A stretch of DNA of 15,369 nt from a bacterium. GTDB taxonomy: Bacteria; SAR324; XYD2-FULL-50-16. The position numbers and the translations under genes were made by a program. The notes under the pieces were generated by a model. It had not been told where the DNA came from and ran no database searches. It worked only from the letters and a program-made list of their open reading frames with translations. The DNA is taken from assembly GCA_024275165.1 (NCBI GenBank), contig JAJRZQ010000010.1:1-15369 (forward strand), read 5' to 3'. Of this stretch, positions 9,757-12,299 are shown piece by piece (the first letter of the stretch is position 1; each line of letters starts with the position of its first letter).

Positions 9757-10344
9757 ATGTCGATTCAGCACAATCAATTACAGTATATGGCCCAGGAGCA
9801 TCAAAAATGGCTTCGTGACCGCAGTAGTGGCAAACGGGCCAATTTTACCCGAAAAAACCTAGTGGGTACTGATTTTAGAGGGCTCAACTTCGCCTTTGCC
9901 CTTTTTCAAGGGGCTAATTTAAGCCGTGCTAATTTTTCTAAGGCGATTGTTTCGGGCTGTGACTTTTCCGGTGCCGCCTTAAAGGGAACCCTCTTTTCTC
10001 AAGCGAAAATGATCAGTACCCGCTTGCGGGAAGTCAAAGCTCCGGGGGCAAGCTTTCGCCAAGCGGTGTTGCAAAAGGCGATTCTTTCGGGGGGGATGTT
10101 TGAAAACGCCAATTTTATGGGGGCAGACCTAAGGGCCAGCAACTTAAATAACGGGAATTTTACGGGGGCCAACCTTTCTAAGGCTCGGTTGCAAATGGCT
10201 CATGTAGACAATGTAATTTTAAAAAAGGTGCGCTTCTTAGGCGTTTTTATGGAAGGGGGCAGTCTAGCGGGGCAAAACCTAGCCGGGGCCAACCTAAAAG
10301 GAGCAAGCTTGAAAAAAATGCGTCTGAACCAAATCAATTTATAA
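9757..10344 (+). CDS. Pentapeptide-repeat protein, N-terminal part up to an in-frame TAA
   Basis: 195 residues with good starts: GAGG lies 5 nt before the ATG. After an N-terminal helix containing HQKWL, common at the head of pentapeptide proteins, the sequence is a run of A(D/N)LXX-type repeats (GANLSRANF, GADLRASNL, GANLSKARL, GANLKGASL), which fold into a right-handed square beta-helix. The TAA at 10342-10344 falls in a variable position of a repeat (INL-stop-GADITQANF), and the same frame continues with perfect repeat pattern to 11199. This is therefore most simply the front part of a 480-codon gene cut by one nonsense codon. A 195-residue truncated protein could still fold. Pentapeptide proteins have varied roles, including gyrase protection, and none can be assigned here. 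Confidence 0.8.
   Translation: MSIQHNQLQYMAQEHQKWLRDRSSGKRANFTRKNLVGTDFRGLNFAFALFQGANLSRANFSKAIVSGCDFSGAALKGTLFSQAKMISTRLREVKAPGASFRQAVLQKAILSGGMFENANFMGADLRASNLNNGNFTGANLSKARLQMAHVDNVILKKVRFLGVFMEGGSLAGQNLAGANLKGASLKKMRLNQINL
10342..10344 (+). other. In-frame TAA that splits the pentapeptide gene
   Basis: The stop is flanked by uninterrupted repeats in one frame: 9757-10341 before and 10345-11196 after. It occupies the slot held by Lys in the nearby repeat NLKGA; AAA to TAA would be a single change. TAA ends normal genes here (for example at 1365), so reassignment of the codon is unlikely. The next base is G, not a known strong readthrough context. Confidence 0.85.
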
Positions 10345-10407
10345 GGGGCAGACATCACTCAGGCTAATTTTGATGGGAGCGACCTCGGCAGCGCAAACCT
10401 CAAAAAG

Positions 10408-11199
10408 GTGCAGGCAAAGGGGTCTAGCTTTAAAGGGTCAAGTCTCAAGGCGGCACAGCTTGATTATGCCATTTTTGATCAAGCGGAGATGAATCAAGCC
10501 AACCTTACTTCGGCGAGCTGTATTGAAACGAGCTTTAAAGGGGTCAACCTGGAGTTTGCCCGCATGCCCGGCGCCAATTTTAAAAAAGCTGATTTTTCCG
10601 ACGCCTCCCTAAAGGGGGCCTTTTTAGAACAAGCGATCTTTAAAAAAACCAAGTTTTCTGGCTGCGAGTTGAGCGCGACTCGGGTGCCCCTTGAACGACT
10701 TAAAAAAGATGCCCTGATTGGGGTTGTCATGCAAAAGGCCGACCTCAAGGGGAAAAACCTCAAGGGGTTTAACCTAAAAGGCTGTAATTTGAAAGGGAGC
10801 GATCTAACGGGGGCTAATCTGGCTAAAACCAACCTCACCGAAGCAGACCTTTCCCAATGCAAGCTGCAAAAAGCCAACCTAGACCGGGTCAAGGGGGTCG
10901 GGGTGAACTTAAGCTATTCTTTGCTGGTTCAGGCAAGCTTGATCAAAGCCAACCTGAAAGACGCCAAATTAGAACGCTCTCGCTTAGACAAAGCCAATCT
11001 GTATAAAGCCAGATTGACGGGGGCCAACCTGGTTGGGGCCAATTTGGAACGGGCCCAGTGCATGAAAGCGGACTTGAGCGGAGCAGACCTTTCCCGCTCT
11101 TTTTTAAAGCAGACTAATTTCATTGGCGCGGATTTAAGCGGCGCGGTTTTGGATGAAGAGGCCTTGGTGCAAGCCCTCGTTGAAAAAAAGAAAAGCTGA
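10408..11199 (+). CDS. Pentapeptide-repeat protein, C-terminal part
   Basis: 263 residues if read from the GTG at 10408, but the repeats run in the same frame from directly after the TAA (10345), and this GTG has no correctly spaced ribosome site, so independent translation is doubtful. The body is almost wholly pentapeptide repeats (GSDLTGANL, KTNLTEADL, KANLYKARL, GADLSGADL), broken at about residues 90-110 by a short non-repeat stretch (RVPLERLKKDALIGV). It ends in a charged helix-like tail (DEEALVQALVEKKKS) that may cap the beta-helix. It lies 65 bp before the diguanylate cyclase gene and probably belonged to that operon. It is either the dead 3' part of a broken gene or is made at low level by readthrough. 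Antisense open frames across it are by-products of the repeat. Confidence 0.7.
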   Translation: MQAKGSSFKGSSLKAAQLDYAIFDQAEMNQANLTSASCIETSFKGVNLEFARMPGANFKKADFSDASLKGAFLEQAIFKKTKFSGCELSATRVPLERLKKDALIGVVMQKADLKGKNLKGFNLKGCNLKGSDLTGANLAKTNLTEADLSQCKLQKANLDRVKGVGVNLSYSLLVQASLIKANLKDAKLERSRLDKANLYKARLTGANLVGANLERAQCMKADLSGADLSRSFLKQTNFIGADLSGAVLDEEALVQALVEKKKS

Positions 11200-11264: not shown

Positions 11265-12299
11265 GTGAAGCAAAAAAAATCTCAGATTTTGGTCATTGAC
11301 GATAATGCCGTGAATCGGCTGGCCTTAAAGCATTTTTTGTTGCAAGAGGGGTATGAGCCGATCCTGACTGCCAGCGGAGCAGAGGGGATTGAAGTTGCCT
11401 TTAAAGGGCAAATCGATCTCATCTTGCTGGATGTGATGATGCCGGACATGAACGGCTTTGAGGTGTTACGCCGCTTGCAGGCGGATTCTCAGGCCAAGCA
11501 TATCCCCGTTATTTTCGTTAGTGCCTTGGCAGAGGACAAAGATATTCTAAAAGGCTTGCGCCTGGGGGCACGCGATTATGTTTCCAAACCGATTAACCCG
11601 GAGCTTTTTAAACTGCGGATTCGCAATGTTTTAGAGTTGGTTCAGGCCAACCAGAGCCTTCAGCGGACCATCAACGACCTCACCAAAGAAATCAATCTAA
11701 GAACCGAGGTCGAAATCAACCTACGGGCAAGCCGTCAGCAATTACAACAATTCGCCTTGCTCGACGCTCTAACTCAGATCCCCAATCGCCGTCAACTCGA
11801 TGAAAGCCTAAAACGAAACCTTGCCGACATGCATCGCAAGCAAGAACCTTTGAGTTTTCTCATGTGCGATATTGATTATTTCAAAAACTACAACGATACC
11901 TATGGGCATAAAGCGGGGGATGAATGTTTGACTCAAGTGGCCCGTGCCTTGGTCCAGGCGACCAATCGCCCTTCTGATTTAGTTGCCCGTTTTGGGGGGG
12001 AGGAGTTTACCTTGCTTTTGCCCTCGACCACCTTGGAGGGGGCCTTGCATGTAGCGCGGAATATTCAAAAAAATTTACACCGGATCGGGATTGCCCACTT
12101 GGGCACCTTGGTTCAAGGGCAACAGACCCTAACCATCAGTATTGGGATTTATAATTTAATTCCTCAAGACAACAGTAATATATCGGAAATAATTGAGCGA
12201 GCCGATCTCGCCTTATACCATGCGAAAAACAAGGGCCGCAATTGTGTAGCCCTCTGTGACCCCCAAGGCTATTGCCATGTCGAAAATTTTAATTATTGA
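11265..12299 (+). CDS. Response regulator diguanylate cyclase (REC-GGDEF)
   Basis: Soluble 344-residue enzyme expected to make c-di-GMP from two GTP when its receiver is phosphorylated. The receiver (about 6-125) has DD at 12-13, phospho-acceptor D56 in LLDVMMP and K108 in SKP. A coiled-coil linker (about 125-165) leads to the GGDEF domain (about 168-330), with DALTQIPNRR, an intact active site GGEEF (244-248) and an inhibitory I-site RPSD (235-238) exactly five residues before it, so product inhibition is likely. I chose the GTG at 11265 because GAGAGGG lies 6 nt upstream; a GTG at 11247 has no ribosome site. It lies 65 bp after the broken pentapeptide gene and overlaps the next gene by 23 bp, pointing to translational coupling. 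A PleD-like role is inferred from the domains. Confidence 0.93.
   Translation: MKQKKSQILVIDDNAVNRLALKHFLLQEGYEPILTASGAEGIEVAFKGQIDLILLDVMMPDMNGFEVLRRLQADSQAKHIPVIFVSALAEDKDILKGLRLGARDYVSKPINPELFKLRIRNVLELVQANQSLQRTINDLTKEINLRTEVEINLRASRQQLQQFALLDALTQIPNRRQLDESLKRNLADMHRKQEPLSFLMCDIDYFKNYNDTYGHKAGDECLTQVARALVQATNRPSDLVARFGGEEFTLLLPSTTLEGALHVARNIQKNLHRIGIAHLGTLVQGQQTLTISIGIYNLIPQDNSNISEIIERADLALYHAKNKGRNCVALCDPQGYCHVENFNY

Follow-up and report, generated by a model that had tools for sequence, protein, structure and literature searches.

Why does a frame that encodes pentapeptide repeats along its length carry a stop codon in the middle of the array? In the window (the whole stretch of DNA analysed, 15,369 nucleotides), translation of the forward-strand frame at 9757–11199 gives an ATG at 9757, 195 codons, a TAA at 10342–10344, 284 further sense codons and a closing TGA at 11197–11199, confirming the single in-frame TAA reported in the first-pass annotation. 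The upstream part (9757–10344) has its own strong, well-placed Shine-Dalgarno site and starts with a helical N-terminal cap sequence followed by pentapeptide repeats; it ends mid-array. The downstream part (10345–11199, same strand) begins mid-array and has no N-terminal cap. Inspection of the sequence at 10342–10344 revealed neither a cap nor a domain boundary; the TAA sits at the variable position after the Asn-Leu of a repeat.

Each half was recognized separately by the Pfam profile PF00805 (upstream, E-value 4e-32, 109.8 bits; downstream, 1e-58, 194.8 bits; curated cut-off 20.2 bits), and both belong among pentapeptide-repeat proteins, a family defined by at least eight contiguous A(D/N)LXX-type repeats. 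One further match (10288–10404, 35.7 bits) runs directly over the stop and includes one TAA. When 50 residues on either side were compared, with the stop counted as one residue, the phase of the hydrophobic repeat centre was unchanged across the TAA, being kept in 10 of 10 repeats before it and 9 of 10 after it. The repeat pattern, earlier called perfect up to and after the TAA, is therefore perfect on the upstream side and nearly so on the downstream side. A downstream frame open for 284 codons has a chance of about 3e-7 by composition, and the remaining two forward frames over the same part contain 20 and 21 stops. For the right-handed quadrilateral beta-helix expected of this family, single-sequence AlphaFold2 models of the read-through and truncated proteins gave no usable indication, their mean pLDDT being very low (34.8 and 36.2).

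The nearest paralogue in the same genome (L071:2573-4381:-, contig C28) is uninterrupted, with 603 codons from its ATG. It carries the same N-cap, ‘EHQ.WL.D’, and aligns colinearly with residues 3–461 of the interrupted gene (167 of 514 columns identical), with no gap at the site of the stop. In both genes the hexamer LNQINL stands directly before this site, where the paralogue continues with a sense codon. The hexamer is not repeat consensus and its positions in the two arrays are nearly equal (190 and 183), which argues that the arrays are aligned in true register. Thus, the two genes are alike in their cap, colinear array, LNQINL at the stop site and neighbouring signalling genes, but differ in length and continuity; since they are only 32% identical, we regard the L071 gene as a paralogue rather than an ortholog.

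Given the common register, the PF00805 match across the stop and the colinear, uninterrupted paralogue, the ancestral unit is, as read from sequence, one gene of about 480 codons. The earlier view of a split gene is supported by the register, by paralogue colinearity and by the lack of any start site above chance after the stop. By register, profile and paralogue the two parts are same-frame fragments of one continuous gene, as in a nonsense pseudogene, and would correspond to what Pseudofinder terms a fragmented gene, namely adjacent fragments of one ancestral gene (PMC9336565). Like pseudogenes created by a nonsense substitution, this is one gene with frame and pattern intact on both sides of one in-frame stop; it would differ from them in being very young, judging by the lack of further lesions, and in that its intact ancestor is deduced from a paralogue. 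Its A(N/D)LXX array and N-terminal helical cap also resemble those of HetL (NF047416; structure 3du1), a cyanobacterial protein of ten coils (PMC8145042). The read-through protein scored 288.9 bits against NF047416, a sum over five overlapping stretches, and the halves alone 74.3 and 135.7 bits; as the cut-off of 260 bits is a whole-protein score for one HetL-like domain, these values indicate resemblance to HetL and not membership.

The explanation that we consider likely is a fresh nonsense mutation in one gene, shortening a pentapeptide-repeat protein from about 480 residues to a truncated product of 195. Under this scenario the gene would have gained one nonsense codon recently: ribosomes would start at 9757 and make the N-cap and part of the repeat solenoid without its C-terminal end, terminate normally at 10342–10344, and leave the last 284 codons no longer translated to any useful extent. 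Drawing on internal evidence and this one paralogue, we infer that the TAA is a real base of the genome, that it arose recently and that function was lost with it, so that 9757–11199 is probably a young pseudogene. Of the four alternatives offered by the first-pass annotation, a recent nonsense mutation fits best and a sequencing error is less probable; readthrough and a purposely kept truncation lack positive evidence, as there is no suppressor tRNA, the release factors are normal, the sequence beyond the stop forms no RNA structure and none of the other repeat genes examined is interrupted.

The age of such a mutation can be bounded from the downstream part, which contains no further stops or frameshifts and no sign of decay; synonymous codon use is equal in the two halves (chi2 35.6, 35 df, P-value 0.44). 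If the downstream part has evolved neutrally from the origin of the stop onwards, the lack of additional stops alone caps divergence at about 0.11 substitutions per site; an indel rate one tenth that of substitutions would lower this cap to about 0.03. The lack of decay leaves three readings: a recent stop, a stop that is not real, or a downstream part that is still in use. A recent stop is the simplest of the three, and sequence error or continued downstream use would account for the undecayed part equally well; nothing in the analysis speaks positively for continued use.

The second of these readings, in which the TAA stems from an error in consensus, assembly or base calling, or is the base of a minority strain in a mixed sample, and the organism's own gene is intact, seems to us a distinctly weaker candidate than a real mutation, though one to be kept in mind. 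The undecayed remainder of the frame would be expected from it, the genome is a draft in 47 contigs, and all other repeat genes of the genome are intact. Yet the TAA does not lie in a homopolymer, the difference is not a frameshift, which is the usual type of error, the surrounding sequence bears no sign of poor quality and every other gene of the window has an open frame. We think it improbable that the truncation is kept, with the 195-residue product working alone and the downstream half either dead or restarted as a second protein. Short pentapeptide-repeat proteins of 150–220 residues are indeed common (PMC8145042), and ATG 10564 (10564–10566), the lone candidate restart with a Shine-Dalgarno-like site in the first 100 downstream codons, has a GGAG 8 nt upstream (–5.9 kcal/mol). 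However, measured against random positions in the window its score ranks between the 10% and 25% levels and so within chance, the stop interrupts the array without being preceded by a C-terminal cap or followed by an N-terminal one, the paralogue runs on unbroken, and none of the other repeat genes examined is split in this way. The earlier statement that the downstream half has no credible ribosome site holds close to the stop, where GTG 10408 and ATG 10489 have no Shine-Dalgarno site, and has to be qualified for ATG 10564, whose GGAG scores at chance level.

Readthrough of the stop into a minority long form appears less probable still. Frame and register continue exactly across the TAA, as this would demand; the machinery that would permit it, however, is ordinary. 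A covariance-model search found 42 tRNA genes, all with ordinary anticodons, and no stop-reading or suppressor tRNA among them. Both release factors terminate at TAA (PMC5009743), and their genes, prfA and prfB, were each found as an open frame scoring above the curated cut-off; two more genes in the window have TAA as their stop codon. Shuffled sequences fold as well as the 100 nt that follow the interruption (z = 0.37), revealing no downstream RNA structure, and Rfam gave no match above the gathering score. Slippage at the A7 run at 10312–10318 was considered as a rescue and rejected: a shift into either of the other frames meets a stop within about 20 codons of the run, so slippage cannot restore the protein. 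Hence none of the hallmarks of readthrough or reassignment (suppressor tRNA, altered release factors, stimulating RNA structure) was found, and nothing supports readthrough, reassignment or slippage. We rank a young nonsense pseudogene above an artefact of sequence or strain, and both above a kept short form or readthrough, which are unlikely.

We also looked at other repeat genes and for orthologs. The loci fetched from this genome and its relatives contain 54 distinct open segments of pentapeptide repeats; apart from the two halves of the gene studied here, all 52 run without interruption. In repeat genes of relatives, six candidate in-frame stops were inspected, and each proved to be a normal gene end, with no interruption inside an array. 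The interruption is private to 9757–11199 among the loci examined. Searches with both halves found no ortholog in 52 genomes of the class and 58 of relatives (none of the same genus), which yielded distant repeat proteins or nothing; a collection of genome contigs scanned with the N-terminal half and MoaC gave no ortholog locus, and a plasmid collection gave no match. In the literature we found no pentapeptide-repeat gene whose interruption was described as serving a purpose. About 17 pentapeptide-repeat genes are present in the 2.7-Mb genome (loci L071–L088), several of them longer than 400 codons. Many encode a signal peptide, together with a module, ‘W.(D/N)G..C....IG.C’, that recurs either between repeat blocks or behind them.

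Taken at its best reading, the locus looks as if a recent and unremarkable mutation had abolished the gene's function (unless the sequence is in error), and nothing indicates special decoding. It would then be of little import, one more young pseudogene among the repeat-protein genes of an uncommon bacterial lineage, with the caution that annotation pipelines would call two genes for one ancestral gene. Were the stop maintained, the locus would show regulated decoding of TAA, which would be unusual in a bacterium, but none of the evidence suggests this. We give the least credence of all to a maintained switch, in which a 195-residue main form and a rare long solenoid, read through or restarted, would serve the adjacent c-di-GMP and histidine-kinase genes.

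The genes that follow bear on the suggestion that the stop has a polar effect on the cyclase. A response regulator-GGDEF (diguanylate cyclase) gene, identified by ORF and profile search, lies 65 bp downstream on the same strand (11265–12299); by start-site scoring it has a good Shine-Dalgarno site of its own, and the 65-bp gap before it holds no terminator-like site. Within the part left untranslated, a hairpin with a T-run at 10603–10619 resembles a terminator and could matter for polarity, although such sites within the repeat gene are not above chance (5 found against 3.9 ± 2.0 expected from shuffles). A putative polar effect on the cyclase is possible. No repeat gene adjoins the best homologues examined for the GGDEF gene, which lie in this genome (contig C16) and in two members of the family, so a conserved functional pairing of pentapeptide-repeat and GGDEF proteins is not supported.

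Beyond the GGDEF gene come a response regulator-kinase gene and then a MipA-like gene. If started at ATG 12277, the kinase gene shares its first 23 bp (12277–12299) with the end of the GGDEF gene, an overlap that suggests translational coupling. In the L071 region (L071:1329-4558), the long N-capped paralogue directly precedes a methyl-accepting-chemotaxis-like gene and lies near a CheY-like gene; both N-capped repeat genes of the genome therefore adjoin signalling genes.
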